In this document: in pieces, positions 2,999-46,400 of the stretch | Numbering within the stretch: the first letter of the stretch is position 1 | How the letters are laid out: each line of letters begins with the position of its first letter | Virus record (IMG/VR): IMGVR_UViG_3300035661_000042 | Coordinates: 1-64,000 of that record | DNA: 64,000 nt | Origin: a virus | Strand: one strand, 5' to 3' | The notes under the pieces: model-generated | Databases searched by the model: none | What the model was told of the DNA's origin: nothing | Seen by the model: the letters and a program-made list of their open reading frames with translations, nothing else | Position numbers and translations under genes: made by a program

Positions 2999-4279
2999 TT
3001 AAACCATACGAATGTCGCTATTGAACAACAACTTGAAAGCAGCAAGTTGAATTGCGCGGTAGTGAGTCTTCTCAACTGCACAGTTGGTATAGTGCACTGC
3101 TTGACCCAAATCCAGCGGGCACGAACTCTTGCACAGCCGACGAACTTCACACGTTCCACAGTGATAATCACGATTTAGGTTGACTTGTTGAATCTTGATA
3201 CCTTTGAGGTACATCAAGTTCCCACCGTTGTAAGATTCGTCAACGTTTTGGCACGTCCGCACGTTACCAAGCAAATCCATTGTCAGCAGCCTGCTGTCGT
3301 CAACTCCGCAGTTGGATTTAAGCAGTGGAACCTTTTGTTCTTGGAGAGTGCGAGCAAACGGCAACACACCCAACCCCGTTTGGAATAGATTGTTCGCTAA
3401 CATATCGCCCTGTGTTGTTTCACCAAGGCGTCGGAACTGCTCAATATGCGAGTCCAAATAGCGAGTCAGGATCTCCTTATACAACGGGATATGTTCACCG
3501 CTAATAACATGGTGAGTTGAGTTTTCTGCCATCTCTTTGTCATATACTCTGCCCAGCTCATAACTCAACTGCTTATGTTTGAGGTTGTTCTGTTGGAAGA
3601 AGTCAAGAAAGAAGTCGTTAATTTTGAACAAATCGTAGTTTGTGCGACTAATCACAGGGTTGAAGCTATACTGGATCTTTTGACCACCCTCTTCTTCGAT
3701 CCGCTGAAAGATCTCAACCTTCTTGTGGATGAACTCTTTACCACGAAGCGTTTCATGACCGGGGCCGTCGTGTGAGATGCCCATTGCAACATTGCCCTTC
3801 AATTGTTTGAAGAAGTCGATGTGCTTGTGCATCAACGGCGTTCCGTTTGTCGGGACATACCACGTGATTCCTTCGCGGTCAAACTCTTCCATCAAAGGAA
3901 CCATATCCTTCCAGTACAGCAAGGTTTCACCGCCCCACAGCTCAAACCGGAGTAGTTCTGATAGGTCGAGGTGACGCTTGATCTTCTGGATTAGCATTGG
4001 GGTTAGCCCGTTCTCTGGCCTTTCGTTTGGATTACCGATGTCTTTTTGCATGCAGTATCCACAGCTATAATTACATCCTTGGCCAAGAGAAATTTTGATT
4101 GTTTCGGGGTTCTTTACAACATGTGTTGCGCCAAAGCGATCTTTCAGCTGATTCCACTCTGCTGGTTCTACAAATGGTTTGCTCAACGGGGCACCTGCAT
4201 CTGTGTACAACCCATTATTAGCGTTGTCATACAAGAAGTGTTCGCCAGTGCGAAGGATTTCAAATTTAGTTACACTCAT
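2999..4279 (-). CDS. Radical-SAM/SPASM peptide-modifying enzyme (rSAM-D)
   Basis: The 426-aa protein carries the radical-SAM motif CxxxCxxC as C69-C73-C76 (GQGCNYSCGYC), which binds the [4Fe-4S] cluster that cleaves S-adenosylmethionine. A GGE motif follows (LWGGETLLYW). The C-terminus is a SPASM-type auxiliary cluster domain: NCG, then LTMDLLGNVRTC, then CGTCEVRRLCKSSC (CX2CX5CX3C), and a last Cys in HYTNC. SPASM proteins typically modify ribosomal peptides through thioether or carbon-carbon links. About 60 residues precede the core and could bind a substrate leader. It is the last of four radical-SAM genes; its ATG overlaps the previous stop by 4 bp (ATGA). The substrate is inferred to be the 67-aa peptide. 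Confidence 0.88.
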   Translation of the reverse strand: MSVTKFEILRTGEHFLYDNANNGLYTDAGAPLSKPFVEPAEWNQLKDRFGATHVVKNPETIKISLGQGCNYSCGYCMQKDIGNPNERPENGLTPMLIQKIKRHLDLSELLRFELWGGETLLYWKDMVPLMEEFDREGITWYVPTNGTPLMHKHIDFFKQLKGNVAMGISHDGPGHETLRGKEFIHKKVEIFQRIEEEGGQKIQYSFNPVISRTNYDLFKINDFFLDFFQQNNLKHKQLSYELGRVYDKEMAENSTHHVISGEHIPLYKEILTRYLDSHIEQFRRLGETTQGDMLANNLFQTGLGVLPFARTLQEQKVPLLKSNCGVDDSRLLTMDLLGNVRTCQNVDESYNGGNLMYLKGIKIQQVNLNRDYHCGTCEVRRLCKSSCPLDLGQAVHYTNCAVEKTHYRAIQLAAFKLLFNSDIRMV

Positions 4280-5460
4280 GATGTGCTTTCAACGATGGGA
4301 ATATGTAGTGGAGGGCGCAGCGGAACAGGAGAAAACATAAAGAGTGGTCTCACAGCACCAGACGTACAGTTAGGATCAAACAATCCATATTGCGTTTCAA
4401 TCCATCCCTGTTCTTGCAGTTTACGGTACAACCGCACCCACGGTTTGAGTATGATGCGAGGCACAAAGTTGTAGTGTTGGTCAACGACTAAGGTTGACGA
4501 CAAGTATGAAAAGTACTCATAGTGCGGATTGTTTGTCTTATTGGTAATTTCCCGTGCATATCGCGCATACAAATCCAACTTTGCTTGAAGGCTCTTTGCA
4601 ATGAAATGATCTATGTCGATAATCCCGTCACGCATGATATCGTAGTAAGGAACACTCGATGCAGCGGTGGCGTCACTCAACGTGAGAAGAAGCGAAGTGT
4701 ATTGTAGATACACAACTTCGCTGATTACTTGCATTGGTTCCGATCCCTGTGCGTAGTAATTTAGCTCTTGGTAATCAACAGAATCAAGATTCAGACGTAA
4801 GTTTTGACCTTGGGTAATGTCATCATGCACCCCAACATATATTCCAAGCGAGTGTGCAAACTCGACAAATCGCACGACGGGCTCTGATTGTTCGCCATTA
4901 GCAGTGCGAACAATCACTTTCAGCTTTGAGATAGGAGAGCGTGCGTGAAGAAGTTTCAACTTTTCTATTACGTCATCAACCATTCGACCTTGTTTCTTTC
5001 CAAGAAACACATCACTAAATGAGATCTCGTACACGGTTTTGAATTGGACGTCTTCCATCATGATTTTGTACTGCTGTACGAACGCATTATCTGTCATCTG
5101 CGTTGAAGCCATGCGATGAGCGTTTCGTTTGTAAAAATCAAACAAATGTGGATAGTTGTTCTTGATGTAGTACAGGTCATCAATCGTGCTAATTGTGTCA
5201 AAGCAGTCGAAAAATTCAAGAATGCGCTTCTCTGTCGCCTCGCCAATCACATGAGGAACATATGCGTCAAACTTGTCATCTGGCATCCAAGCATCACGCA
5301 AGTAACACATCTTGCAGCCGGCCTTACACATATACTTGACGAAAATTGAGAACACAAGTTCACGAGAGATGTTTTCCAATGCATCCCACTTCAAGAAGTA
5401 TTCCTTGAAGTTAGTGCTATTTTCAACGCCCGGTGTTACCTGCTTTTCTGCTTCAATCAT
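4276..5460 (-). CDS. Divergent radical-SAM protein (rSAM-C)
   Basis: The ATG at 5460 is preferred because it forms an ATGA overlap with the upstream stop; an upstream start at 5550 would lie inside the neighbouring gene. The 394-aa product has C45-x3-C49-x2-C52 (MCKAGCKMCYLRD), the radical-SAM cluster motif. No GGEP motif and no Cys-rich SPASM domain are apparent. The region after the motif is Asp/Tyr-rich and unlike the other three enzymes. It may be a non-SPASM radical-SAM enzyme or a partner of the flanking ones. The third of four coupled genes, it is presumably made in step with the others. The call rests on the cluster motif plus context. Confidence 0.7.
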   Translation of the reverse strand: MIEAEKQVTPGVENSTNFKEYFLKWDALENISRELVFSIFVKYMCKAGCKMCYLRDAWMPDDKFDAYVPHVIGEATEKRILEFFDCFDTISTIDDLYYIKNNYPHLFDFYKRNAHRMASTQMTDNAFVQQYKIMMEDVQFKTVYEISFSDVFLGKKQGRMVDDVIEKLKLLHARSPISKLKVIVRTANGEQSEPVVRFVEFAHSLGIYVGVHDDITQGQNLRLNLDSVDYQELNYYAQGSEPMQVISEVVYLQYTSLLLTLSDATAASSVPYYDIMRDGIIDIDHFIAKSLQAKLDLYARYAREITNKTNNPHYEYFSYLSSTLVVDQHYNFVPRIILKPWVRLYRKLQEQGWIETQYGLFDPNCTSGAVRPLFMFSPVPLRPPLHIPIVESTS

Positions 5461-6536
5461 ATTCCTACCCAGTGGAAAAATGTTGGTTGTTGTTTGAGTT
5501 TTTGTGCGTGTTGTATTACTACCATCAACATCTGATAGAATTGAGCACATTTATCAGTTTCGGGGTCAGTTTCAAAGATTCCGTGCAGGTATTTCAATCC
5601 ACACAGATCCCTTGACGGACACACTTGACACTTTGGACGGAGCATCTGGTCTTCTTGCTCTTTTGTTTTGATTCGTTCAACAGATACAGGATCTCTCCAT
5701 CTGCCAACAGTAGTTTCTGTTCGTTTGTATTCAAGGAAATCAAACTCCGGATACAGGTATCCATCAGGTGACAGCACCAGTTGTTTGTGGTCGTTAAAGT
5801 AATGCTTGTCAAATCCGTTTCCGTGCCCGTCAATTACAACATCGATTCCCATCAGATATAGCATCTGAACAAACTTCAAAAAAGCATCAAAGAATTGTGG
5901 TAGATTGAGTTCATCGATAATAACACGAAACTTGTCCTTGCCACGAATGTGGCGCAGAGGAATCAATACAATTCGCCGCACATCGTTCTTGTGACAAATA
6001 TCAGTGATCGACTTTATTGCTGCGAGGCTGAATACTTTTGGATCCGTTACAGGCATTACGTACTGAAATTGCCTTCCACGTACTCCCGTTTCAGCCATCA
6101 TTTTCAGCGTTGGATTGATCTCAAACAGCGAGCGATTTAGGTCCTGATACATGAAGTCATAGCTGATGCTAATTTCCAACCGAGGACCCCACTTTTCAAA
6201 GAACCAACGGTGCTGCAAAATCTGACTTCCATTGGTTTGGATGTAGAATGGATAATCACCAGGCACAGATTGAACAATTGCATCCATCATTTTGTCCATA
6301 ATCTTCACATACGAGAATGGTTCACCACCGTGGAATGTGAACATTCCAGGAGGAGACGCAGCAATTCCTGACTTCTTGAAGAAGTCAATGATATACGGAA
6401 GATCGTCGAGCGTCATATGTTGCCCACCGATAGAATCTTTGATGTAATCTCGATCGCAATATGTGCAATTGAAGTTGCACACGTTTCCAAGATATATCGT
6501 AATCGTTCGGCACCCCGCAAGAGAGGTAGGAGACAT
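5457..6536 (-). CDS. Radical-SAM enzyme with C-terminal twitch/SPASM-like Cys cluster (rSAM-B)
   Basis: The 359-aa protein has C20-x3-C24-x2-C27 (VCNFNCTYC) near the N-terminus and a GGEP-type motif (FTFHGGEPF) about 40 residues later, both hallmarks of radical-SAM enzymes. Near the C-terminus lies KCQVCPSRDLC (CX2CX5C), then a distal Cys in TDKC, resembling a short SPASM or twitch auxiliary cluster. A beta strand with VLSPDGYLYPEFD precedes it, as in SPASM domains. The gene starts one base inside the stop of the 572-aa enzyme (TAATG) and ends in an ATGA overlap with the next. Activity on a peptide is inferred from family and operon. Confidence 0.87.
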   Translation of the reverse strand: MSPTSLAGCRTITIYLGNVCNFNCTYCDRDYIKDSIGGQHMTLDDLPYIIDFFKKSGIAASPPGMFTFHGGEPFSYVKIMDKMMDAIVQSVPGDYPFYIQTNGSQILQHRWFFEKWGPRLEISISYDFMYQDLNRSLFEINPTLKMMAETGVRGRQFQYVMPVTDPKVFSLAAIKSITDICHKNDVRRIVLIPLRHIRGKDKFRVIIDELNLPQFFDAFLKFVQMLYLMGIDVVIDGHGNGFDKHYFNDHKQLVLSPDGYLYPEFDFLEYKRTETTVGRWRDPVSVERIKTKEQEDQMLRPKCQVCPSRDLCGLKYLHGIFETDPETDKCAQFYQMLMVVIQHAQKLKQQPTFFHWVGI

Positions 6537-8254
6537 TACAGCTTGACTATTTTGTGCGGTTTCGATAAGCCATCACCCTTCTGGTTCAACAGAACCATAT
6601 GAACCAACGCAAGATAAAATGTGCGCTTGTTCACATCATTGATATCACCTTCTGAAACACTTGCTGTTACAGGCTTGCCCGCGGCAGTAAGGAGATATTC
6701 ATACAGGGCTTTGATATCAATAGGCCATGCAGTGATGGTAGGAACGTAATCATCAGCATCATCCAGTGCAGTGACCTTGTTTTCCATTAGACCAATAAAT
6801 TGACCAATGATTTGTTCATATGGTGGTAACTTATCAGCAAATTGATCGACTTCATCAATAGCCAAATGTACACGATTGATCTTGTTATACATCAAGTGTG
6901 TCAATGCCTTGGCAAACGTATACTGCTCACCCTTTGTTGCGACGGATTCAACCAGTTGTTGGAATTTTTGGTTGAACGTCTTACGCACAATGTCGTTTTG
7001 TAGTTCAAGGAATAGTCGAACAATGCTTTGACACATGGCATCAGGACGGAACAATCCACGACCCGTATCAGCTTGCCCTGCTGGACACTGATAACAGAAT
7101 CCCTTCAAGTCACAGGCTTGGCACTGTGGTTCCTTGATGAACATTTCGTTGTAAATGTCTTGGAAGCTTGCGTAGCGATCAACATATACCGCATCATGCA
7201 AGAGGTTTCCAAGGATTGTATGTGGGACAGACTCTTTGAGATTGGTGAAGAAGTGGCATCCAGAGAAATCGCCCGACGCATCGACAGCAATCATGTCAGA
7301 TCCAACCATGCAGTTGTTTCCACCCTTCGCGCCAACTCCCTCGGAAAACTGAACCTCAAAGTTTGGAAGTGTGTTGATTACTGTTAGCACACTTTGGTGC
7401 AAAGCTTCCCATCGTTCAGCATCCCACGTCAAGTGTCCGTCAACGGAACTGTTTGTAAGCGGGTGAATCACGATTGCACGGAGTCCCTTATCGTATAGCC
7501 GAGTGCAGAACTCTACAAGACGTGGAGCGTTCTCAATTGCGATTGTGCAACGCACGCTGACCATGTGATTATTTTTGTGGTATTCAGGAATCAACCCGAT
7601 CATGTCAATGATGCGGTCGATGCGGTCTTGCCCAATTTCACGGTGGTCGATTTCAGCAATGTCGGTGTCCAAACTAACGCTCATACACACGTGCTTGCTT
7701 TGAAAATATTCGTCAATGAACTGCGGCGTTAGCAGGATACCGTTGGTAATGATGCCAACAGCGGTTGTCGCAGAGTTCTTCTTTAATTCTGCGTCGTACG
7801 TACGGAGGAAATCAAGAATCAACTGCTTGTGAATCAACGGTTCACCACCAAAAAACTGAAACAGCTTACCAGTCTTTGGATTACAAGCGACGAGGAAATC
7901 ATACAGTTGCTTCAAGCTTTCAGGGGTAAATCGGCCGTAATCCTTATCGTGCTGTTCATAGCAATACGAACAGCTTAGGTTGCAAGCGTTGGTGACAATC
8001 AAGTTCATGTGTTGGAGGTCTTCAAACAACTCGTACACTGCTCCCGTCTTCATCACTCGTTCGGCTTGGTCAGGACGAATGGATTTATATGCAACTTCCT
8101 TTACGTCACCCCGCGGTGTAATAATCGTACGAACCGATGTGTCAAGTGTTCCATCAGCATTGACTTTGACAGAGGCTTGGTGTGAGTCAATTCGTTGCTG
8201 TTGAGCCTCCGTTAGCGCGCGCTTTGGATAGAATTTAACTTCTGTTGTTTTCAT
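6536..8254 (-). CDS. Radical-SAM/SPASM peptide maturase (rSAM-A)
   Basis: Start chosen at ATG 8254; an in-frame ATG at 8338 would overlap the preceding gene by about 100 bp. The 572-aa product has about 85 N-terminal residues that could bind a substrate leader, then C91-x3-C95-x2-C98 (ACNLSCSYCYE) and FFGGEPL. A complete SPASM domain follows: NNCMVGSDMIAVDASG with a later Cys (SGCHFF), then CQACDLKGFCYQC and a final Cys in DAMCQ. About 150 further residues form a helical extension. This architecture matches maturases of sactipeptides, ranthipeptides and related RiPPs. First and largest of four tandem radical-SAM genes, so it may be the main enzyme; the actual chemistry is unknown. Confidence 0.9.
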   Translation of the reverse strand: MKTTEVKFYPKRALTEAQQQRIDSHQASVKVNADGTLDTSVRTIITPRGDVKEVAYKSIRPDQAERVMKTGAVYELFEDLQHMNLIVTNACNLSCSYCYEQHDKDYGRFTPESLKQLYDFLVACNPKTGKLFQFFGGEPLIHKQLILDFLRTYDAELKKNSATTAVGIITNGILLTPQFIDEYFQSKHVCMSVSLDTDIAEIDHREIGQDRIDRIIDMIGLIPEYHKNNHMVSVRCTIAIENAPRLVEFCTRLYDKGLRAIVIHPLTNSSVDGHLTWDAERWEALHQSVLTVINTLPNFEVQFSEGVGAKGGNNCMVGSDMIAVDASGDFSGCHFFTNLKESVPHTILGNLLHDAVYVDRYASFQDIYNEMFIKEPQCQACDLKGFCYQCPAGQADTGRGLFRPDAMCQSIVRLFLELQNDIVRKTFNQKFQQLVESVATKGEQYTFAKALTHLMYNKINRVHLAIDEVDQFADKLPPYEQIIGQFIGLMENKVTALDDADDYVPTITAWPIDIKALYEYLLTAAGKPVTASVSEGDINDVNKRTFYLALVHMVLLNQKGDGLSKPHKIVKL

Positions 8255-9149
8255 TGTTGAGTACCACGTACTTGAATGTTGGGTGTTCGGTTGGGCGAGC
8301 TTGATCAAAAAGCAACCCACAGTGAAATTGTATTTCAAAGTATCCTATACCATGCGCAGGAGTAGCAACAACAAATGACCCATTTACTGTGGTGTATTGC
8401 AGATTAGTATCAACCGTCCACTGTGCATTCGCCAGTATATTAGCGGGATCTTCTCGTTTGAGAATTGAAATAGGGCTGGTGAGAAACGATAAGGTAAATG
8501 TTGGTTGTGTTGTGATAATTACGTTACCAATCACCCGGGCTGGATCTTCGATAGTTGGAATGAGAAAGTGTTGGCACAGGGGACCATCTTTTTCAGACAA
8601 CAAGAACCACATCGCTTGTGCAGGCACATCATAGAAATCAAATCCATCTGTTGCATGGACAAGATCAGAATTTAGAATCAAGCTGTATACGGGGAACCCT
8701 GCGAACCGAACTGCTCCAAAAAATGCCGTAATCATTGTACCAAACTTTGACTCAATTGGGAGATTAGTTTCAATATCGATTACAACTCCGTCTGCCGTTC
8801 GAGCGAAGTATTGGGCTTTTTCAATTGCTTCTGTGTCTTTGGTTATGTGGTGCGAAGCAAGTACACCAAAAATGACGTACTCATACTTATCAAGCGCCGT
8901 AGTTATGAGATCAAGATCAATTGGGCGAAAATATGATGGATGCTGTACGCGGAGAGACGGATCTGTTTGGTAGTGCGCAATAGCAAAAGCACTGGTTCCG
9001 TTTCGTGTGTTGTTGCGTACTAAACGCAACCCTGGTTCTACCCTGTGATAGAATCCAATTTGAGGTAACTCGTCGGGGTTTACAACAGTGGTGAAATCCC
9101 CAAAAAGAGACGGAGTTCTATCCCCTTCTCTGACCAGAATGTACTTCAT
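8235..9149 (-). CDS. Unknown 304-aa protein of the radical-SAM operon
   Basis: No family is recognised. The N-terminal part (MKYILVREGDRTPSLFGD) and the middle look alpha/beta (KYEYVIFGVLASHHI; ADGVVIDIETNLP), and the last 80 residues look beta-rich. There is one Cys near residue 212 (GPLCQHF) and one near the end (FHCGLL), and no signal peptide or membrane segment. Its ATG lies three bases after the stop of the 67-aa peptide gene, with no clear Shine-Dalgarno sequence, so translation is probably coupled to the peptide. Its 3' end overlaps the first radical-SAM gene by 20 bp. The position suggests a dedicated chaperone, leader-binding partner or structural acceptor. It could also be an ordinary fibre-associated protein. 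Confidence 0.75.
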   Translation of the reverse strand: MKYILVREGDRTPSLFGDFTTVVNPDELPQIGFYHRVEPGLRLVRNNTRNGTSAFAIAHYQTDPSLRVQHPSYFRPIDLDLITTALDKYEYVIFGVLASHHITKDTEAIEKAQYFARTADGVVIDIETNLPIESKFGTMITAFFGAVRFAGFPVYSLILNSDLVHATDGFDFYDVPAQAMWFLLSEKDGPLCQHFLIPTIEDPARVIGNVIITTQPTFTLSFLTSPISILKREDPANILANAQWTVDTNLQYTTVNGSFVVATPAHGIGYFEIQFHCGLLFDQARPTEHPTFKYVVLNNENNRS

Positions 9150-9152
9150 AGG

Positions 9153-9356
9153 TTACAGAATACCACGGGAGCAATTGCAGTTACAATTGCAATTGCAGGC
9201 GGTACTATAATCGTCATAGAAGATATGTGTGTGAGACACTAATTCATTCAAAATGCTAAGCATATTTTGAAATGTAGCAGCATTCACTTCATTACCTGCG
9301 GTAACAGTAGCAACTGTACCAGCAGCAGTTGTCTTTGTACTTGTGGATTCAGACAT
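9153..9356 (-). CDS. 67-aa Cys-Asn repeat peptide, candidate radical-SAM substrate
   Basis: A good ribosome-binding site (AAGGAAATACA before ATG) supports this small gene. Residues 1-20 are Ser/Thr-rich. Residues 25-50 (NAATFQNMLSILNELVSHTH then IFYDDY) contain H42-T-H44 and resemble the segment AADINVLIAMIN...VHSHT of the Hint protein encoded upstream. The C-terminus is ACNCNCNCNCSRGIL: five Cys (54, 56, 58, 60, 62) alternating with four Asn. Codons vary within the repeat (TGC/TGT, AAT/AAC), so it is not a simple recent expansion. With four radical-SAM genes directly downstream it fits a RiPP precursor whose core is the CN repeat. Unmodified metal binding by the Cys and HxH residues is the main alternative. 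Confidence 0.8.
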   Translation of the reverse strand: MSESTSTKTTAAGTVATVTAGNEVNAATFQNMLSILNELVSHTHIFYDDYSTACNCNCNCNCSRGIL

Positions 9357-9378: not shown

Positions 9379-10737
9379 TTACAACACGGGAAGGGGTTGG
9401 ACAACAGGTAATTGAGGAATTACACTATCCCAGTCGAGCGTAGTATAGTCAAAGCCTGCTTGGTTGACACCGGCACCAACTACATATCCATTGACAATAA
9501 TTGGTGAACCGTTTGTGCGTGGAAGGTACAGTCGTGTGTTTGGATCAATAACTGATCCTGTACTTACTGTGTTAGTTTTCCATCCGTCTACGTGAGCCCA
9601 ATCAACAGCCTGATTGCCACCACGCATTGATTGATTATCTAACAGACCACCAATTTCCCCCGATGCTGCTTCTGCTTTCCACATTACTGGATTAGCTGAC
9701 CACCACCACTGTGATTGATTGGCATCACGTGTCCACATTGCGTGTTCTTCGGACCAGCTCAATGAATTGTCTTGGAATGTTTTCATACGGCGGCCGCCCA
9801 GGAACGGGCGGTCCATTGATATGACAGGTTCGGGATGACCCATTCCCATGATCATATCTCCCACATCAACGTCTTCAATCAATTTCCACGTTCCGTCTGC
9901 CATTAACACAAAACTACCGGCAGGAAAACAAGTGAGAACTGGTGGAACATATGTATATTCTGTACATTGAAGTGTGATTGAGGCAGTATCAAGTACTGCC
10001 AACGTCGAAGCGCTGCGAATTTGGACAGTTAATACTGATGTGATTGTGGTGTCTACTGCACCACTTGCAAGTGTCCACGAACGTGTAGTTCCAAGATTTA
10101 ACCACGTTCCAAGCGGAGATCCTGTCACAGATGATCCGCTTGATACTGTAACATACACATCGTAAGACGCTGCTGTCGTTAAGTCCACTGGCGCCATCGT
10201 ATTCCACTCAGCTCCTGTTGCTCCACCAGTATATGATAGTTGTCCATCATTAGCAAGGACGAGAGTAACAGAAGTTGGAGCAGAATCAGACCAACTATAC
10301 GTTTGAGCAGTTATGCTCGCCGTTTGACCCGTCACCCCAACACCGTCAGTAATCGTGTGTGAGTGAACCCGCATATTGTTGATCATGGCAATCAACACGT
10401 TAATGTCAGCAGCAGTAATTTGTGCATCAGTTGCAATTCCACCAGGCGTAGTAACAGCCCCGTATGCAGGCGTTGTTGCAAATGTTGTTTGTGATAGTAC
10501 TGTTCCACCTACCCCGTATGTTGTAACATTACCAAACGTATCAATTCCTTGAATATCTGTTGCACTGTGCGTATGACTGCGCCAGAGATTGTATACAGAG
10601 CTGTTGAGGCTGGCGAGATCAGACGCATATACAGACTTGCCCGCTGCCATCGCCACAATCAAGGCATTAACCACCGCTTGCATTGTTGCAATTGTGTATC
10701 CCAGAGGTGTAGAAGTTGTCGTTGAAACTTGTGGCAT
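9379..10737 (-). CDS. Tail-fibre protein with C-terminal Hint (hedgehog/intein-type) domain
   Basis: The 452-aa protein has two N-terminal helical segments, each ending in a His-x-His motif (LWRSHTHSATD near 52-61; VHSHTITDG near 124-132), followed by beta-sandwich-like sequence to about 265. A Hint domain begins at C270 (TCFPAGSFVLMADGTWKLI), with SWSEEHAMW as the conserved His block and SPIIVNGYVVGAG as the closing strand. Hint domains make an N-to-S acyl shift at the first Cys, which can cleave or ligate the protein. There is no C-terminal Asn-Cys splice junction, so splicing is not expected. A clear ribosome-binding site (AAGGACGGATC) precedes the ATG. It lies between a fibre gene and the Cys-Asn peptide gene. 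Function inferred as a virion tip protein. Confidence 0.8.
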   Translation of the reverse strand: MPQVSTTTSTPLGYTIATMQAVVNALIVAMAAGKSVYASDLASLNSSVYNLWRSHTHSATDIQGIDTFGNVTTYGVGGTVLSQTTFATTPAYGAVTTPGGIATDAQITAADINVLIAMINNMRVHSHTITDGVGVTGQTASITAQTYSWSDSAPTSVTLVLANDGQLSYTGGATGAEWNTMAPVDLTTAASYDVYVTVSSGSSVTGSPLGTWLNLGTTRSWTLASGAVDTTITSVLTVQIRSASTLAVLDTASITLQCTEYTYVPPVLTCFPAGSFVLMADGTWKLIEDVDVGDMIMGMGHPEPVISMDRPFLGGRRMKTFQDNSLSWSEEHAMWTRDANQSQWWWSANPVMWKAEAASGEIGGLLDNQSMRGGNQAVDWAHVDGWKTNTVSTGSVIDPNTRLYLPRTNGSPIIVNGYVVGAGVNQAGFDYTTLDWDSVIPQLPVVQPLPVL

Positions 10738-10746
10738 GATCCGTCC

Positions 10747-12081
10747 TTATGCGTACACAGCTGGATATACTTGCTTCCAGTTGCCGCCAGGAGGGCCGCC
10801 TGATCCACCGGCATTTGCGATATAGATTTTTCCCGAATCAATTGCAATGTCACCAGCTTTGTATACGCCAGACGTCCAGATGATAGGAACACCTGCGCCA
10901 ACACCTGCGCCAGCAATTGCTGCTGTCATTTGCGAAACGTTTACTGCATCGTTGGCATTTGTTCCAGTAGCAAGATTAACGATCTTGCTACTGTTCATGC
11001 TCAACTGTCCGCCGTTAATGTTGGCAGCACCACTAACGGTTAGTGTGCTACCAATCGATGCGGTTGTTCCAACAACCAAAGCACCACTTGCTGTTAGCGT
11101 GCCTCCTGATGTAATTGCACCCGCCGTTGAGATGGAGTTCAACGACGCCAACCCTGACGAAGATAGTGTTGTGAACGTGGAGTTCACGCTGTGTATGACA
11201 GTTCCAGCGCTGAACGTCACAGAACCTATTAGTGTACCACCAGATAATGGGAGGAACACGCCGGCGCCGCCACCTGATACCAAACTGGTTACTTGTGCCA
11301 GCGTTGTTGCATCTTGTGCACCAACGGCATTTGCCATTCCAGTAATTCTAAACGAACCCATTTCCAGATTACCGCTGGCCGTTGAAAGAGCCGCTCCTGT
11401 TGGACCAAGAATTTCCTGCCACGCAGCACCAGTGTATACAAGCAGATTACCTGTCGCTGTATTGTACCACAACATACCAGTAAGTGGTAGACTTGGAGTT
11501 GTGCCAGAGACGATAGTTCCTGACGGCGTATCCCACGTCGCTGTTGCTGCATTATAGACGTGAACGTTAATCTGGGGTGTAACTGCTGGGGAGATTGGTA
11601 CTGCACCCCCGATGATATAGGAACGTGGCAACCATGCAGCTGGTTCATACTTGCCAAGCGAATAGTAACCAAATAGAGTAACACCGTTGCTGTAATACTC
11701 ACCTTCAATTGGAGATACTGATGCAGTTCCTGATACAATGCCTGTGCCGTTGAGAAGTTTCCATTTGTTTGGAGCAACTTCCTTGATATCGTAGTAGTAC
11801 CACCCTTGCAGTACGTTACCGATCAAGGTATTACGATAGTACAGCGTTTGCTCTACCCACGTTTGACCGGTGATTGCGTAGCTTGGTGATGAAGCACTTG
11901 CAAAGTTTTCTGTCAAACGGACCAAGTCTTCGTCGACAGCCTCGCCCCATTCAAGTGCTCCGCGACCATACAACCGAAGAGATGTGTTGGCAGACGAACC
12001 ACCTGGGCCGTTGAAGCCGCCGGCTGGAATGCTAAAACTACCTTTTAGCGGGTCGGAAAAGTCGATTGCATATGCTGACAT
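10747..12081 (-). CDS. Tail-fibre protein, paralogue of the 613-aa fibre
   Basis: The 444-aa protein shares its N-terminal 90 residues in pattern with the protein at 1083-2924 (SDPLKGSF, LRLYGRG, GEAVDEDLVRLTENFA, GQTWVEQ). The rest is Gly/Ser/Thr-rich shaft sequence with GSVTFSAGTVIHS and STAGAITSGGTLTASGAL repeats. Its C-terminus (SGKIYIANAGGSGGPPGG) resembles carbohydrate-binding or tip modules that end in a Gly-rich stretch. It is first in the operon that continues into the Hint protein, the Cys-Asn peptide and the radical-SAM enzymes, behind a late promoter. Confidence 0.75.
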   Translation of the reverse strand: MSAYAIDFSDPLKGSFSIPAGGFNGPGGSSANTSLRLYGRGALEWGEAVDEDLVRLTENFASASSPSYAITGQTWVEQTLYYRNTLIGNVLQGWYYYDIKEVAPNKWKLLNGTGIVSGTASVSPIEGEYYSNGVTLFGYYSLGKYEPAAWLPRSYIIGGAVPISPAVTPQINVHVYNAATATWDTPSGTIVSGTTPSLPLTGMLWYNTATGNLLVYTGAAWQEILGPTGAALSTASGNLEMGSFRITGMANAVGAQDATTLAQVTSLVSGGGAGVFLPLSGGTLIGSVTFSAGTVIHSVNSTFTTLSSSGLASLNSISTAGAITSGGTLTASGALVVGTTASIGSTLTVSGAANINGGQLSMNSSKIVNLATGTNANDAVNVSQMTAAIAGAGVGAGVPIIWTSGVYKAGDIAIDSGKIYIANAGGSGGPPGGNWKQVYPAVYA

Positions 12082-12116: not shown

Positions 12117-12123
12117 TATTTAT
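12117..12123 (-). promoter_or_regulatory. T4-type late promoter core for the fibre/radical-SAM operon
   Basis: ATAAATA on the minus strand, 36 bp upstream of the 444-aa fibre start. No other late core is seen before 2964, so the whole set from the fibre to the fourth radical-SAM gene could be read from it. Confidence 0.7.
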
Positions 12124-12144
12124 GTCAACGTGCCTACTTGTGGT

Positions 12145-17974: not shown

Positions 17975-18544
17975 TTATGCATATGCCAAGATACTGTCAT
18001 CCTTGATGAAAGACATTGTTACCCCAGCATGCCTAAATGTATCTGTGAAATTGGTGTCGTTGTAATAGATAGTTGTACCAACTACCAGTTCTGGTGAAAC
18101 TTTTGGTCCCAAGTGCAACACAACACCCGTTGGTGTTTCGTCGGATCCACCAATCACAACGATAATGCCACTGGTTGATTTGAGATCAGCCTTTGGATTT
18201 TGTTTGAATAGCACAACATTGGTAAGCGGTTCAATCGGTGCGAATGGAGTGTCACGCACAGCAACAGCTTGGGATTCGTCAGACATCCATACACGAACGC
18301 CTTCAAACTTCAACCCCGACGTCCAGCGCAAGTTGGGGAGAAGTACTTGTTGACCGACCTTTATTGTGCAACTGGGGCCAACAGCAATAACTTTGACCCA
18401 CCGTGGTTCTTTAGCGCTGTCATCAAAGCTGGCTTTCAGCACAATCCCTGATGCGGTTGATTCTTTCTCAAACTCCCCCTTGGAATTAACGCGGTCGATA
18501 AATTCAAATGCGATTCCATTGCTCTTGACTGGTACGATGTTCAT
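17975..18544 (-). CDS. Tandem GroES-like co-chaperonin
   Basis: The 189-aa protein is about twice the length of GroES and appears to hold two GroES folds. Domain 1 (about 1-96) has SGIVLKASF as the mobile loop region, [18 protein letters not shown] and a closing ESQAVAV. Domain 2 (about 97-189) has [30 protein letters not shown] and the closing [11 protein letters not shown]. These match the GroES order of roof, turn and terminal strand. T4 encodes a single-domain analogue (gp31) needed for capsid protein folding by host GroEL. A similar role is inferred. Confidence 0.78.
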
Positions 18545-34650: not shown

Positions 34651-37600
34651 TCAGATTCTCGATACTATCACAGACTGGAACGTATTTGTCGTTGTAGTAG
34701 CAGCAGTTACGTGTGATAGTCCAAGAATCAGTGCACCAGTGGTGTTGATTGTTGTTGCACCACCAGCGTTCACAACATTACCAGTTGCAGCAGATGTAAT
34801 ACCGGTTGCGCCGTTATTCATCAGGTTACCGTAACAATATACTGATCCTGATGCACCAATTGCACGAACAACGAAGAACAATGTCACAACAAACGGAACT
34901 GTTGTACCAGACGTCGCCGCCGTTGCTGTCAGTGTTGTCAGTGCAGTATCTGCGGTTGTACCAGCAGCACCGAGCCTTGGTGTAAATGTTGTTACGTTGG
35001 CAACCGTCGAAGTACAAGTGCCGTATGCAGTGATACGGAATGTATCACCAACTGCCAATGTATTGGCAGCAATGCTGAATGTTGTTGGTGCAATATATGT
35101 TGCCGTTGTGTTCAACGCAGCTGACGCAGCTGTTGTTGCTTTTGTAGGCAGGGTAAAGCTTGCCGTAACAGCGCCAGTAGCAGCAGACATTGTAATTTGG
35201 TTTGCTGTACCAGCAATAGAAGTAACAACTGACGCCCAAACAGGAGCTGTTGTTGCTCCTTGGGAGGTTAGGGCTTGTCCAGAGGTACCAGCACTACTAT
35301 TAAGTTGCAGTGATCCGTTTGTTGGAATTATGAGGTTAATGACACCCGGGGTGCCTGATCCAGTTCTGGCGCCAGCAGTTAATGTAACACTACCGCCAGC
35401 ACTATTACCCGCACCCGACGCAGAAGTTCCTGTTATTGCAACACTACCGCCAGGGCCACCAATAATGTACGAATCTCCACCCTTAACAGTTACAGTTCCT
35501 GGTAGAGGAGACCCTGTATCAATATTTGGAGCACCACCTGCAATGTTGACCGCACCGCCAGCTCCGCCTGAAGTGCCACCCGTGCCACCAGAGATTGTAA
35601 TTGTGCCGCCAGCTTGCGTTCCGCCGCCGCCCGATCCAGCAGTGGCGGATATACTTCCACCTGTTGTTGTACCACTACCAGAGCCAGCCGTCAGGGAAAC
35701 ACCTCCTGCAAAACTGCCTGATGCGTTAGCACCCGTCAACGATATGCTGCCAGCAGTACCGTTTGTTGGAACTCCACCGTTAATCGCAATATTACCGCCG
35801 CTACCTGATGTACTACCGCCTGGGCCACCAGTAATTGTCAAAGCATTACCGGATGCAGTTGCATTTGCAGCATCGCCAGGAATAACATTGAGGGCTGTTC
35901 CAGTTGTTGTTGTAATGCTGTTTGTTGCTGTTCCTGCAATGATGCTACCTGTTGCTTGTACGGAGCCAGGTGCAATCAACGTAGACGGCAGAGAAACAAC
36001 AACTGCACCTGTTGTTGGAGTGGAAGTTACTTGGTTTGCTGTGCCAGTGACGGAAGACACAGCGCCACCACCACCAACAACAGTATTCGATACAATATAC
36101 CATTGTGTTGCACTGATTGCTGTTACTTCCAACGTACCGTTGGCGATTATGGTGACAGCAACGTTAGCACCGAGTGCATCAATTTGAGCTCCTGATGCCG
36201 GATAAGCCAACAGTGCATTTGCACCGCGATTCGTAACCCGGACAGTTCTACCAGCCAACCCAGCAGGCAATACGACACCTGTACCCGATGCAGTTGTTGT
36301 TACAACTGCATAATCGGTAGTTAGTACTGTGCCGGTGCCTTGTGTCGTACCAGCAGCAGTAATGCTGTTCGTTGCAGACGACTGCAACGATGTAGTGATT
36401 TGTAATGAGCCAGGGGCTACCAACGTTGACGAAAGACCAACAGTAACTGCACCAGTTGCGGCGGAAACTGTTGTTTGATTTGCTGTTGCAACATTCGACG
36501 TAACACCGGTGTTATTGATAGTTAATGTGCCGGCGCCAGCTGTGATGGAGATGCCAGTAGAGACACCTAGCGTAGCTACTGTATAGGTTGTACCATTACC
36601 AACCAATAGCTGGCCGTTGGTTGGGGTTGTTGTTACACCGGTACCGCCGTTACCAACACCAACCGTACCCGAAAGAGCGATGGATGGAGCACCAGCTACG
36701 CCGTCAGCATTAGTAACAGTGATATTTGTGCCTGAGCCAAGTGTGCGCGTAGTCCACGTATCTGCTGCTGTGCGAACAGCTATACCAGTTGTAGCCAACC
36801 CTTCAACTGCTGCCAAGTCGTTTGCAAGCGCAATCGTTGATGTTGCAGCAGGTGTTTGTGCTACACCACTGTTTGTAACTGTAATGCCTGCGCCTGGTTG
36901 TGTCACTGTAACAGATGTGACAGTTCCTGAACCACCAGCAGAAGTATTTGATACAGTATACCACTGTGTTGCACTGATTGCGTTTATTTGTAACGTACCG
37001 TTGACAATCACAGAAATTGCAACGTTTGAACCAAGTGCATCAATTTGAGCACCAGATGCTGGGTATACTAACAGTGCATTTGCACCGCGATTCGTAACCC
37101 GGACAGTTCTACCAGCCAACCCAGCAGGCAATACGACACCTGTACCCGATGCAGTTGTTGTTACAACTGCATAATCGGTAGTTAGTACTGTGCCGGTGCC
37201 TTGTGTCGTACCAGCAGCAGTAATGCTGTTCGTTGCAGACGTCTGCAACGATGTGGTGATTTGTAATGAGCCTGGTGCAATTAACACTGATGCAAGGCCG
37301 ATTGTGACAGCACCGGTTGCACCGGATACTGTCGTCTGGTTTGCTGTTGCGACGTTTGATGTCACACTAACTGCTGGTGATTGCCACGTCGGCGCTGTTG
37401 TAGCACCTGTTGAGGTTAACAGTTGTCCCGACGTACCAGTTGCTGCACCACCGGTTCCAATTGACCACGCTCCGTTTGCAAGAATTCGAAGACGTTCTGT
37501 CAATGACGTCGCGCCCGTGCTTAATACAACATATCCACCACTACCTGATGTTGTCAATCCACCGTTGATAGAGACATTACCACCAGAAGTACCGCCTGTA

Positions 37601-39690
37601 ACCGAACTACCAGCAGTGATAGTTACGTTACCACCACTACCTGATGTTGAACCGTTAGTTGAATTACCACCCAGCAATGAAAGATTTGCGCCAGCAATGC
37701 TATTGCCAGCGCTATTTCCTCCACGAATTGTAACGCCCCCGCCTCTGTATATTGAATCAGCGTGAATAGTTACAACACCCGCATTGCCAGTAGATGACGT
37801 ATCCCCTGACCGTAATGTTAGAGATCCTCCGATATTTGCGCCACCGGCTGTACCACCTGCAATAGTCGTGTTTCCTGCATCACCACCAGAAGTACCGCCA
37901 GCTGTCAGGGTAATATCATTTCCTGTGCCGCTTGATGAAAATCCTGCACTGATTGTCATCGGTGCTGAACTCAATGTTCCAGTTATTCCTGTAAACGTGA
38001 CAGCAGAATTTGCAGTGACCCCGAGTGTAGTTGCATTAGGCAGTGACGAGGATGCAGGTGGGGTTGTCCACGTACCGTTTCCACACCAGAATGTTGTACC
38101 TGATGCAGATGTTCCGCTATTCAGGTTAGTAACTGGTAGATTACCCGACACGTGTGTTGTTAAGTCAACTTTACCCCAGGCAGATACGGTCGTGACACCA
38201 CCAGAAATCAACACGTTACCAGTAGCAACCGACGACAACTTGCCCAATACGTTTGATGCAGTACCTTGTAGTAAGTCACCAACAGCATATGTTGTGATAT
38301 TGGTGCCACCGTTACCAATTTGGAGAGTACCAGTTACATCAGACGTAGAAATGTCAACGTTTGTCCACGTAGTTGTGCCGTTTCCCGCTGCATTGTGGAG
38401 GAATGAGTTTGTTCCACCATTATTCAATGGGAGAGTTAAGTTCCAGTTGGCGCTCGAAGCGCCTGATTGAATTCTTGTGTAATTAACAGTTGATGCGTTT
38501 CTGAATGTAATTTGACCGAGTGCTGTTGAACTTTGACCAAGCTCCAACGAATCCGTTGCAAGAATCGTCAGCTTACCATTCATTGTATCACCGTTGACAG
38601 ACACGCTGTCATATGCAGAAATACGAAGAATCGTTGCTGTTTCAATAACAATAAAGTAAAGGTTACCAGCAATGATACCACCAATAGGAACTGTTGTAAT
38701 TCCCATTGATATTATGATAGCGCCTTGACCAGAAATGTTCATCGTCGGGCTTGTTGCGCTTGAATTGCTGGCAGCCTTAAACACAAACTGTTGTCCAATT
38801 GCTGATGCATACGATGCAATTGCAGGCGACGGAGTAATTGTCAGTGCATTAGCTGTACCACCTGCCGTGCCGCACCATATTAACGGTGAAACACTACCAC
38901 CCGCCGCTGCCCACGTTGGTGTTGCACCTGCACCAGCTGATGACAAAACTTGTCCAGCCGTACCAACACTGCCATTGAGTGTGATTGGTGATGATGCACC
39001 TGACAAAGATAAACCGGCGGCTGCGATTAGTTGACCAGTTCCTGTATTGACAGTTAGGTTTGCACTACCAGCAAGACTTCCACTGCTGTTGAACTGAACT
39101 TGTGTTGTTGAGCCACCAGCCGCCGGCACTGAATTACCATTGAACAAAATAGTAATTGCAATGTTTTTATTGTTACCAAACGTGCCTGAGCCGTCAACGA
39201 ACGTAACGTTGAATGTAAACCATCCTGTATTATCAACTTTTGAAGCTACTGTCCAGCGCTGGAATATAGATGCATCATCCAAATCCTGAATGTACAGCGT
39301 TGATGGAAAGTTTAAGTTATTGAAGTACGTAGTTGCATCGAAGCCACCGCTTGTTAGTGAATCAATATAGATTGCAGTGCTACTTGATAATGTAGCATTA
39401 TTCCATTTCAAATTTCCGGAGCCAGGATCAGTTGCAGCTTGGTTATTAGTTACGCTTTTGTATTTGCCGAGTTGGCTAATACCAGAAGGAAACTGGCTCG
39501 CCCAGACGTTGGAGCTGTTGTATACTTCTAATGAACTTGTGTCAGTATTCCAGCGAATGGATGCAAGGACGGGAGAGCCTGGCCGTTGTGCCGTTGTGCC
39601 AACTGGAAATACAATTGACCCCGTTCCACCAAATGTTACAAATGCTTGGTCGTCAGGGGATATTGTGTCTGTACTGTGGTCAAATTCCAT
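34651..39690 (-). CDS. Very large repetitive tail-fibre protein (1679 aa)
   Basis: The start resembles the 802-aa fibre (MEFDHSTDTISPDDQAFVTF...RPGSPVLASIRWNTDTSSLEVY against MNFNHDTGF...RPANAAGQIRFNTTSSLVEY). Long Gly/Ser/Thr arrays (TGGTSGGNVSINGGLTTSGS; GSGSGTTTGGSISATAGSGG) probably form triple beta-helix shafts. A module of about 280 residues containing LTTDYAVVTTTASGTGVVLP and AGRTVRVTNRGANALL occurs twice, with 172 bp identical at DNA level. The C-terminal 140 residues (FTPRLGAAGTTADTALTTLT) look like a globular head. Host range role inferred. Confidence 0.78.
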   Translation of the reverse strand: MEFDHSTDTISPDDQAFVTFGGTGSIVFPVGTTAQRPGSPVLASIRWNTDTSSLEVYNSSNVWASQFPSGISQLGKYKSVTNNQAATDPGSGNLKWNNATLSSSTAIYIDSLTSGGFDATTYFNNLNFPSTLYIQDLDDASIFQRWTVASKVDNTGWFTFNVTFVDGSGTFGNNKNIAITILFNGNSVPAAGGSTTQVQFNSSGSLAGSANLTVNTGTGQLIAAAGLSLSGASSPITLNGSVGTAGQVLSSAGAGATPTWAAAGGSVSPLIWCGTAGGTANALTITPSPAIASYASAIGQQFVFKAASNSSATSPTMNISGQGAIIISMGITTVPIGGIIAGNLYFIVIETATILRISAYDSVSVNGDTMNGKLTILATDSLELGQSSTALGQITFRNASTVNYTRIQSGASSANWNLTLPLNNGGTNSFLHNAAGNGTTTWTNVDISTSDVTGTLQIGNGGTNITTYAVGDLLQGTASNVLGKLSSVATGNVLISGGVTTVSAWGKVDLTTHVSGNLPVTNLNSGTSASGTTFWCGNGTWTTPPASSSLPNATTLGVTANSAVTFTGITGTLSSAPMTISAGFSSSGTGNDITLTAGGTSGGDAGNTTIAGGTAGGANIGGSLTLRSGDTSSTGNAGVVTIHADSIYRGGGVTIRGGNSAGNSIAGANLSLLGGNSTNGSTSGSGGNVTITAGSSVTGGTSGGNVSINGGLTTSGSGGYVVLSTGATSLTERLRILANGAWSIGTGGAATGTSGQLLTSTGATTAPTWQSPAVSVTSNVATANQTTVSGATGAVTIGLASVLIAPGSLQITTSLQTSATNSITAAGTTQGTGTVLTTDYAVVTTTASGTGVVLPAGLAGRTVRVTNRGANALLVYPASGAQIDALGSNVAISVIVNGTLQINAISATQWYTVSNTSAGGSGTVTSVTVTQPGAGITVTNSGVAQTPAATSTIALANDLAAVEGLATTGIAVRTAADTWTTRTLGSGTNITVTNADGVAGAPSIALSGTVGVGNGGTGVTTTPTNGQLLVGNGTTYTVATLGVSTGISITAGAGTLTINNTGVTSNVATANQTTVSAATGAVTVGLSSTLVAPGSLQITTSLQSSATNSITAAGTTQGTGTVLTTDYAVVTTTASGTGVVLPAGLAGRTVRVTNRGANALLAYPASGAQIDALGANVAVTIIANGTLEVTAISATQWYIVSNTVVGGGGAVSSVTGTANQVTSTPTTGAVVVSLPSTLIAPGSVQATGSIIAGTATNSITTTTGTALNVIPGDAANATASGNALTITGGPGGSTSGSGGNIAINGGVPTNGTAGSISLTGANASGSFAGGVSLTAGSGSGTTTGGSISATAGSGGGGTQAGGTITISGGTGGTSGGAGGAVNIAGGAPNIDTGSPLPGTVTVKGGDSYIIGGPGGSVAITGTSASGAGNSAGGSVTLTAGARTGSGTPGVINLIIPTNGSLQLNSSAGTSGQALTSQGATTAPVWASVVTSIAGTANQITMSAATGAVTASFTLPTKATTAASAALNTTATYIAPTTFSIAANTLAVGDTFRITAYGTCTSTVANVTTFTPRLGAAGTTADTALTTLTATAATSGTTVPFVVTLFFVVRAIGASGSVYCYGNLMNNGATGITSAATGNVVNAGGATTINTTGALILGLSHVTAATTTTNTFQSVIVSRI
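36209..36380. repeat. 172-bp perfect direct repeat, copy 1
   Basis: Identical by eye to 37070-37241, 861 bp (287 codons) away and in the same reading frame of the 1679-aa fibre gene; flanking bases differ. Confidence 0.85.
37070..37241. repeat. 172-bp perfect direct repeat, copy 2
   Basis: Second copy of 36209-36380. The first mismatch after the repeat is A at 36381 against T at 37242. Confidence 0.85.
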
Positions 39691-43490: not shown

Positions 43491-46400
43491 ATGGCAGCAA
43501 TTACAGTAATTTCCAGCGGAAACATGGATCAATCACAGAATCCTATTTTCATGGCTACTGGAAATACGACAACAGGAAATCAATCATCACCAGACGCTGT
43601 ATCATGGACAGCGAGAACTTTGCCAAGTGCGATTGCATGGACTGGATTGGCGTACGGCTTGGGATTGGGTGTAGCTATTGGAACTGGCGTTGCTGGATGT
43701 GCTACATCACCTGATGGAACTACTTGGACGGCAAGAACAATGCCAAGCGCAGCTGTCTGGTACGGAGTTGCATTTTCAGGAACCAGATTTGTTGCTGTTG
43801 CTAACGGTAGCACAAGTGCTGCGTATTCAGATGACGGATTCAACTGGACAGCATCAACAATGTCGTTGTCAGCGGCTTGGAAATCGATTGCATACGGTAA
43901 TGGAACGTTTGTTGCGCTTGATAACGTTTCAGGATCCAACTCATTACGCACTTGCACATCTACGAATGGTACTACTTGGGCAAACCAAACTGCGACTATT
44001 ACGTCTACCGGTACTTGGACCAGCATTACTTTTGGTAACGGCAAGTTTGTTGCAGTGTGTTCTGGTGGTACTGTTGCAGCAGAATCAACTGATGGTGTGA
44101 GTTGGACAGCAAGAACGTTACCAAGTTCTAAAAACTGGAATAGCGTATGCTACGGACCAGCGGGATTTGTTGCGATTCCTTCTGATGCTGCAAACACAGC
44201 CGCTGCGTTCTCTGCCGATGGAACAACGTGGGTTGCTACGGTACTTCCAGCATCTACAACGTGGGTTGCTGCTGCGTACGGCTACGGTCGATACGGTGCT
44301 GTATCTTTGAGTACAACCAATGCTGCATCCTCGTTTGATGGAAAGATTTGGACAGCCCGCACGCAAGTGTCTAATGCATATGTTGCTTGTCAATTCTTTC
44401 CGTTCACGTGGAATAGTGCTGATACACTAACGATTAACAACGGTGCAACGGTAACTGTTAATACCGACCAACCGAAGTTCTGGAACACGATTGCGATTAC
44501 CAACGGAAGACTTGCAATTGCTAATGCGGGGACAACCCTTGGAAGCGCAATTACATTCAGTATGGGACGTGTAACTGGTGCAACAGCAAACACGATTACT
44601 CCGGGCTCTGGTCTTGGCTCTATTACAATCAATGGCGACTGGATTAGCCTTGCGACTGGTAGCGGAGCTGCAAATCAAAGCGTAACAACGCCGTACACAG
44701 ACTACATTGCTGCTCTATGGATAGAAACTGTGTCAGGTAGTGGTGTATATGAAATGTGGCTGAATGCGACAGGAGCTTATGGCAGCACAACTCCTGTGTT
44801 TAACAACGGATTGAGTGCGGTCAGTACAGGCAACCGAGGAAAGTTCTTCAAGCAAACATCAAATGGAACATCTGGGTTTGATGGTCCTCTTACATTAACA
44901 ACTGCGTCTGGTGTTGCAGCAACGAGAATCATTACAGTAACCAGTACAACAAATCTGATACCTGGTGCATCAGTAACAGGTACTGGTCTTACAGCTAACT
45001 CTGTTGTTCAAAGAATCATTTCAGCAACACAGTTTGAAGTAAATTTAATCACATCTGGCGCTGTTTCTGGCTCATTAACGGCATATAACCCATATAGAAG
45101 CCAACTAACCAATCAAGTAATATTTGGTGATGGTACAAACGGAAACTTGGTTCCAACGGGTGCAAATATCAGAATTCCTAACATTCTGATTACTGATTTG
45201 ACAGCTGGTAACATTCAAACAGCATCTGGTATATTGAGCACCAGCATTGTTATGACGAACGGTGGTACGATTCAAGCAAACATTTGCTTGTTTGATGAAT
45301 CATACAACAACTTTTCCCAGGCAAATAGCGTATCACTGACGAACGTTGGATTTAGTTTGCCGTTTCTGATTTCAGAATGCTATCAGTTTACTGCAACAAA
45401 CCTTGCTTTTGCGTTGACACCAGTGCGCCGGTTTTATCCTGGTACATTTTGGACGCCAAGGGACAACAGAACAGGATATGCGTTAGCGTGGTCGTATATT
45501 TCAAACGCAAATATCCAAACATTCAAAATGGCCAACAATTGTGGGTCGGGATACATTGCTGCCGCTGCATCCGCTACTGCACCTGGTGCTCATATTTCTT
45601 TGTCATATACATCTGCTGCAACGTTCAATAACTGTGATTTGTTCTCGTTTAACGGAGCAAAGGCATCTGGATCAGTTGGCATTTCAGCAACTCTGGGCGT
45701 AATCAATTGCAACTTCACAAATTTTGGTTTGTATGGTTGCCAACCACTAAACTTACAAACATCATCTGGTAACAAAATGACGAATATCAGGCACAGTTCT
45801 GATATGTTCAATGGTGTAACTACGCTGACAACTACACAGTTTAGATTGTACAACGATCCAAGTACTGGTGCAGCACTTGTCGACAATACCACGTACTTTT
45901 TGAAAGTACGTTCGTTTAGAACGTGGAATGATCGGTCGCAATATTTTGAAGGTTCATTGGTGTCATTTGCCACCCAAAACGGCAATAAGTTGCTAAATGT
46001 TCCGAGGGTATCAGCAATCTCAACTGCGGCTAATACTGTTAGACTGGACTGGGAACAGAAAAGCCCAGCAGCCGTTGTTGCAATATATGAGGTATACCGC
46101 GGAACGTCGGCTGGATTTGCAAAATCCGGCGCTGCTCGTCTGACAAATATCGTTGCCGCTGCTACGATTACATACGTAGATGCAACCGCAACTACTGGTA
46201 CGACATACTACTATGCTCTTCGTAAGCATTCCCTCCAATATGCGACAATTGTTGCAAGCGGTGGTGCGTCAGGAGCATTTACGATTACCAGTGCGTCAAA
46301 TATGCGAACGGCTCTTGGAACAACTGGCAACGTTGCAACAGGTAAGACTGGTAGCACAAAGATATTGTTTGCGCCGGGTTACGTAGCAACAACTACGCTT

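Follow-up and report, generated by a model that had tools for sequence, protein, structure and literature searches.

Radical-SAM enzymes encoded behind alternating-cysteine phage proteins: a candidate finishing module for tail tips

Why would a phage keep several radical-SAM (rSAM) genes in its tail locus, directly behind a short peptide ending in alternating cysteines? The question is raised by the window examined here, i.e., a whole stretch of 64,000 nucleotides (positions 1 to 64,000 of IMG/VR record IMGVR_UViG_3300035661_000042) lying within an 81,132-base virus record. The record is that of a T4-like phage, whose genes for replication and packaging are of T4 type (clamp loader, helicase, UvsX-like recombinase, single-strand binding protein, and terminase). 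An earlier note on this DNA had read the locus as a RiPP-like operon, in which four tandem rSAM enzymes would act on a Cys–Asn peptide.

Layout of the operon and its enzymes

Along the minus strand, a fibre-like 444-aa gene is followed by genes for a 452-aa protein with a Hint match, the 67-aa peptide, a 304-aa protein, and four CxxxCxxC proteins (Table 1). All seven ORFs described earlier were recovered at their positions, including the peptide with its five Cys and four Asn, the 304-aa protein, and the four CxxxCxxC genes. The start of the 600-aa enzyme was moved to the ATG at 8254, from alignment with relatives, and that of the 424-aa gene to the ATG at 5460, near which its relative L018 starts. 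With these starts, the tight one-strand spacing reported before (overlaps of 1–20 bp or a 3-bp gap) holds: 3 bp separate the peptide gene from the 304-aa gene, the latter shares 20 bp with the 600-aa enzyme gene, and the other overlaps are 1–4 bp given the 424-aa start at 5460. As for the late promoter of the earlier note, the nearest element, CATAAATA, is one mismatch away from the T4-type consensus and precedes the 444-aa gene; exact TATAAATA elsewhere in the window occurs at about chance frequency. Farther along, the window encodes a 189-aa protein with a GroES co-chaperonin match (phrog_3188) in its C-terminal half (17975–18544), and two very large proteins of 1679 and 1788 aa without PHROG match (34651–39690 and 43491–48857).

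Table 1 Features of the cysteine-tail locus in the window.
Feature	Position	Strand	Remarks
67-aa carrier peptide	9153..9356	-	HTHIFYDDYSTA motif, then alternating-Cys tail CNCNCNCNC, RG-type end
Alternating-Cys tail (five Cys, four Asn), proposed substrate	9171..9197	-	sequence
304-aa partner protein	8235..9149	-	beta-rich; 58 homologous ORFs in related operons
rSAM/SPASM accessory enzyme 1 (600 aa as listed)	6536..8254	-	ORF listed to 8338
rSAM accessory enzyme 2, 359 aa	5457..6536	-	partial SPASM/twitch cysteines
CxxxCxxC protein (424 aa as listed), phrog_36229	4276..5460	-	ORF listed to 5550
Core rSAM/SPASM enzyme, 426 aa	2999..4279	-	groups with single enzyme of simple tail loci
452-aa tail protein, C-terminal Hom_end-type Hint domain	9379..10737	-	Hint match just below Pfam cut-off
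444-aa tail-fibre-like protein, upstream	10747..12081	-	Pfam YadA_stalk and T7 tail-fibre N-terminal matches
CATAAATA, one mismatch from T4-type late promoter element TATAAATA	12117..12124	-	precedes 444-aa fibre gene

The 67-aa ORF ends in YSTACNCNCNCNCSRGIL, i.e., CNCNCNCNC-SRGIL. It weakly matches phrog_31780, as does the upstream 452-aa protein, whose N-terminal HxH segments are related to the peptide. The window's carrier is small and paralogous to a tail protein, and its place in the virion is read from context only.

Three of the four CxxxCxxC proteins match Pfam Radical_SAM (PF04055) above cut-off, namely the 600-aa (6536–8338, E 3e-14), 359-aa (5457–6536, E 2.5e-8), and 426-aa (2999–4279, E 3e-9) enzymes. 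The 424-aa product (4276–5550) has no Pfam match, and its CxxxCxxC is invariant among its relatives in alignment; we class it as a divergent rSAM-like protein by motif only, so that the earlier count of four tandem rSAM enzymes stands for three by Pfam and for the fourth by motif. The seven-Cys SPASM set is complete in the 600-aa and 426-aa enzymes and partial in the 359-aa one, as noted before (at least two full sets and one shorter), and none was seen in the 424-aa protein; the SPASM cysteine spacing is kept across the core enzymes. In a tree of 47 enzymes, the 426-aa enzyme of the window and the single enzymes of simple loci, including gp030 of Achromobacter phage JWF, form one clade (support 99/92), and the 600-aa and 359-aa enzymes form separate accessory clades. 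One rSAM/SPASM enzyme, of the type at 2999–4279, is universal, and the other enzymes are accessories.

The same gene order (peptide, partner, rSAM 1, rSAM 2, CxxxCxxC protein, core rSAM) recurs in L018, L357, and L476, and is kept in L265 and L294 as far as their sequence extends. Conservation of the operon in such diverged contigs is more than chance. The earlier view of peptide plus enzymes as a single unit within a tail locus is supported. The four enzymes do not, as first supposed, define the system: by tree and gene order a single core rSAM/SPASM suffices in general loci, and the four-enzyme operon is an elaborate version found in the window's own clade. Two further viral contigs carry eight Radical_SAM matches each (the records of L025 and L115, G010 and G045), and in L463 a 255-aa protein (5471–6238) follows the rSAM cluster.

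Association of the cysteine tail with rSAM genes

IMG/VR was scanned twice for DNA encoding CNCNCNC and CNCDCNC. Among the matches listed, 105 of 130 in-frame ORFs (≥55 aa) have the tail ≤30 residues from their C-terminus, and 55 of 58 distinct C-terminal (CN/D)n carriers with ≥3 kb downstream have a same-strand rSAM gene within 3 kb. The exceptions are L275, with an rSAM gene at 3.1 kb, and L111 and L319, short ORFs which we judged to be noise. PF04055 was detected in 42 of 49 tail records vs 1 of 50 records with the same DNA word out of frame or not C-terminal, again among the matches listed (Fisher p about 2e-19, a value inflated by shared ancestry among contigs); in L026, the one control record with a match, the rSAM gene overlaps the tail ORF. 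A looser control was less clean: 15 of the 127 loci outside the C-terminal carrier count have an rSAM gene, and those among the 15 that were inspected are Cys-tail loci too (double tails, read-through ORFs, Hint carriers, and contig ends). The carrier bodies form nine components without BLAST similarity to one another, all sharing the tail.

The reverse search, with a profile of the core enzyme, yielded at least 593 confirmed relatives, the best 80 loci of which were examined. A CxCxCxC C-terminus lies upstream in 64 of the 74 with ≥2.5 kb upstream. As for the remaining ten, the tail stands immediately ahead of a Hint cysteine in L406 and L407, that of L408 is shorter, and a CxCxC end of L383 lies farther than the search distance. 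Extra genes occur in L397, L411, L418, L429, and L432, where the flank stops short of the carrier position; in L387 no CxCxCxC end was seen in the flank examined. Relatives of the enzyme thus almost always come with a Cys tail, contrary to the pattern of homologous rSAM loci devoid of such a peptide that the earlier note had named as a refutation. The system reaches far beyond the window. A search with the 600-aa enzyme gave 62 loci, the last of them weak matches, and one with the 67-aa peptide found no match in cultured phage records. In bacterial genomes scanned for CNCNCNCNC, an in-frame tail with an rSAM neighbour in the stretch retrieved was found only in L227 and L238 among the matches listed, many of which resembled simple repeats.

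Tail sequences vary within a fixed frame. Thirty-three distinct peptides (≤110 aa) from the 600-aa enzyme loci share HxH...DDY/DNY, then C(xC)n, then RGxx, with spacers N (41), Q (38), A (20), E (15), and D (9). A (CT)n variant occurs in L492–L499, where ORFs of ~190 aa end in a HTHIVCCECECTCTCTC-type tail directly before the rSAM match; weak rSAM matches taken for comparison with these loci (H1–H11) are records from human faecal samples. Judging from these sequences, the invariant is the alternating Cys and not Asn, with N, Q, A, E, D, or T as possible spacers. Finding Q, A, E, D, and T spacers led us to drop both the Cys–Asn repeat as the defining feature and Asn as a necessary chemical partner.

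Some loci encode further candidate modifying genes. The 2OG-Fe(II) oxygenase family PF13759 was detected in 19 of 49 tail records vs 1 of 49 controls, and in the inspected loci the oxygenases sit between carrier and core rSAM. Oxygenase-like genes of this kind, sometimes several in tandem, were also observed within the simple Cys-tail operons of L007, L253, L408, and others. Hydroxylation of Asn or Asp in the tail is a possibility; the window's own record has no PF13640 2OG oxygenase, and hydroxylation is therefore not claimed for it. A Hint domain follows in Achromobacter phages JWF and 2-1, its first Cys directly abutting the tail (JWF: ...CNCDCNCNCS|CFPAGT...), and Hint cleavage would therefore make the tail the C-terminus. 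The 452-aa Hint protein of the window has no Cys tail ahead of its Hint cysteine, in contrast to JWF gp028.

The genomic context of carriers points to the virion. Carriers match tail-fibre and structural PHROGs, the genes preceding them match central tail fibre J, host specificity, and baseplate proteins, and the proteins that bear the tail are in most loci larger, tail-fibre-like, and as long as about 650 aa. By these matches and positions, the carrier appears related to tail or structural proteins and sited in a tail locus. Since the tail mostly sits on such larger proteins, the RiPP label is misleading, and ‘modified virion protein’ fits better. Phages JWF and 2-1 are cultured carriers, and Ralstonia phage RP12 probably is another: L476, taken to be RP12, carries the entire operon. 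Virion proteomics exists for the phage RP31 (PMC5468394).

Proposed chemistry and competing explanations

We propose, with a probability of about 0.6, that the cassette is a module by which the phage finishes a tail protein, giving a covalently finished tip and not a secreted RiPP. The carrier, 67 aa long in the window and mostly tail-fibre-like elsewhere, would present its C-terminal (Cys-X)n tail to the core rSAM/SPASM enzyme, which would modify it ahead of assembly; two further rSAM enzymes and the CxxxCxxC protein would assist in the window clade, and 2OG-Fe(II) oxygenases in other clades. The modification would most likely consist of bonds from Cys sulfur to carbon (thioether), resulting in a rigid, reduction-resistant C-terminal tip, and in Hint-ended carriers self-cleavage would bare the finished tail. 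The sequences show the anatomy, its conservation, and the pairing of tail with enzyme. The further parts of this proposal differ in strength: we strongly infer that the tail is the enzyme substrate, the presence of the product in the virion appears well supported by context, and thioether chemistry is plausible.

The nearest known enzymes bear on this chemistry. Among curated models, the 600-aa enzyme comes closest to PapB (NCBIfam NF047865, E 4.5e-36, 124.7 bits vs a cut-off of 340), followed by QhpD (TIGR03906, 74 vs 453 bits), and it scores 63 vs 425 bits against the SCIFF maturase family. The profile comparison envisaged in the earlier note hence singles out PapB and QhpD as nearest, but no family cut-off was reached. 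The nearest solved structure to the 600-aa family, 5wgg (E 1e-19), which is also among the nearest to the core enzyme, is the SCIFF maturase CteB. CteB is a thioether former, as proposed here, but the SCIFF peptides of clostridia are secreted and have six Cys, with no tail protein involved. QhpD, which matures quinohemoprotein amine dehydrogenase, is an rSAM/SPASM enzyme that introduces thioether links into a subunit of a protein and not into a free peptide; it differs in its unrelated substrate and function, besides the sub-threshold score. PapB is likewise an rSAM/SPASM enzyme acting on Cys, with CX3D-type motifs as substrates. It joins Cys to Asp or Glu (PMC9413430). The CX3D/E spacing misfits the present tails because alternation puts another Cys four residues after each one. 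Since a CX3D-type link would hit Cys, and Ala occurs as spacer, we regard a backbone (Cα) thioether, or some other modification, as likelier than a side-chain link of the PapB type. Against our preferred reading stands Ala at some spacer positions, which is hard to reconcile with a side-chain crosslink, and also the lack of sequence homology among the partner proteins of the three locus types.

The alternative that survives best, although we consider it unlikely, is a metal-binding needle, in which three chains would stack their alternating Cys and hold iron, zinc, or an Fe-S cluster, with the rSAM enzymes performing a reaction other than crosslinking, e.g., epimerisation or sulfur insertion. 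The strict i, i+2 spacing would suit a beta strand that turns all its Cys to one side, spacer identity varies, and HxH motifs stand just ahead of the tail in the window clade. A comparable design exists in the tip of the T4 long fibre, gp37, an HxH needle whose alternating His holds metal: like the Cys tail, it has alternating ligand residues at a fibre tip, but it uses His and metal and no rSAM enzyme. A needle by itself gives no reason for an obligatory rSAM/SPASM enzyme, and the nearest curated and structural relatives of the enzymes mature peptides or proteins, several of them by forming thioethers.

Another tail protein encoded in the operon (e.g., the 304-aa partner) could be what the enzymes modify, with the Cys tail only recruiting them, but this is improbable. 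The usual plan of the loci is carrier, partner of 230–320 aa, and rSAM/SPASM, which puts the partner gene between the other two, as this explanation would have it; however, profile comparison found no homology among the partners of three locus types, and no partner lies there in L034, L036, L042, L082, and L117, whereas the Cys tail occurs in nearly all loci. The 304-aa protein itself has no significant Pfam, PHROG, NCBIfam, or PDB match. Its AlphaFold2 model from a deeper alignment (pLDDT 87.4; an earlier one from three sequences, pLDDT 44, was discarded) has no fold match in the PDB at E ≤ 0.001, and its sole strong fold match is a protein of phage RP12.

We likewise give little credence to a RiPP of sactipeptide or ranthipeptide kind that the phage would produce and secrete in the course of infection, for instance to kill competitors or to signal, and that would be unrelated to the virion. 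The short Cys-ended precursor beside rSAM/SPASM enzymes in the window clade does resemble such a system, but most carriers beyond this clade are larger and tail-fibre-like, baseplate or fibre genes precede the locus in related phages, and none of ten scanned locus proteins matches a transporter or peptidase in Pfam. The Pfam models gave no match to an RRE domain in the locus proteins, although one may still lie in the N-terminal region of the enzymes.

Finally, the rSAM genes could be auxiliary metabolic genes for the host with the Cys tail a chance neighbour, a role of that kind having been suggested for those of Campylobacter phages, and tail-less phages with many rSAM genes do exist (CP220 has 11 and no CxCxCxCxC; PMC2853527), but the two-way association and the fixed order and strand make this extremely improbable. 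CP220 was rejected as a relative, as it has no tail.

Precedents and significance

rSAM genes have been met in phage tail regions before. Pelagimyophages carry them as variable cassettes among tail-fibre genes, in a host-recognition cluster, and the accessible part of that report describes no Cys tail, substrate, or function for them (PMC7029224). For RP12 and RP31, a radical SAM protein, an Fe-S oxidoreductase, and a MoaA-like protein are listed separately (RP12 ORF76, ORF77, and ORF79), with the MgoB-like ORF80 adjoining the rSAM genes in RP12; as far as its accessible text goes, the paper ties neither peptide nor tail to them (PMC5468394). In the open PMC literature (bioRxiv and most subscription journals lying outside the search), we found no report of rSAM maturation of phage tail proteins. 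The superfamily of the enzymes is known; it is for the whole system of tail-protein substrate, alternating-Cys tail, and dedicated enzyme cassette that a described counterpart is lacking.

Taken broadly, the odds seem slightly in favour of a swappable rSAM module that covalently finishes (Cys-X)n tips of tail fibre or baseplate proteins, sometimes with hydroxylation and Hint cleavage, and is shared by phages of unrelated tail types, namely T4-like, phiKZ-like jumbo, and siphovirus-type phages (such as JWF), i.e., a new class of virion-protein modification. If true, this would explain the rSAM genes strewn among the tail-fibre genes of environmental phages, and would hint at new chemistry on alternating-Cys sequences and at a covalent fibre tip to study. 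It would also add a chemical finishing step, apparently undescribed, for the very part of the virus that meets the host.
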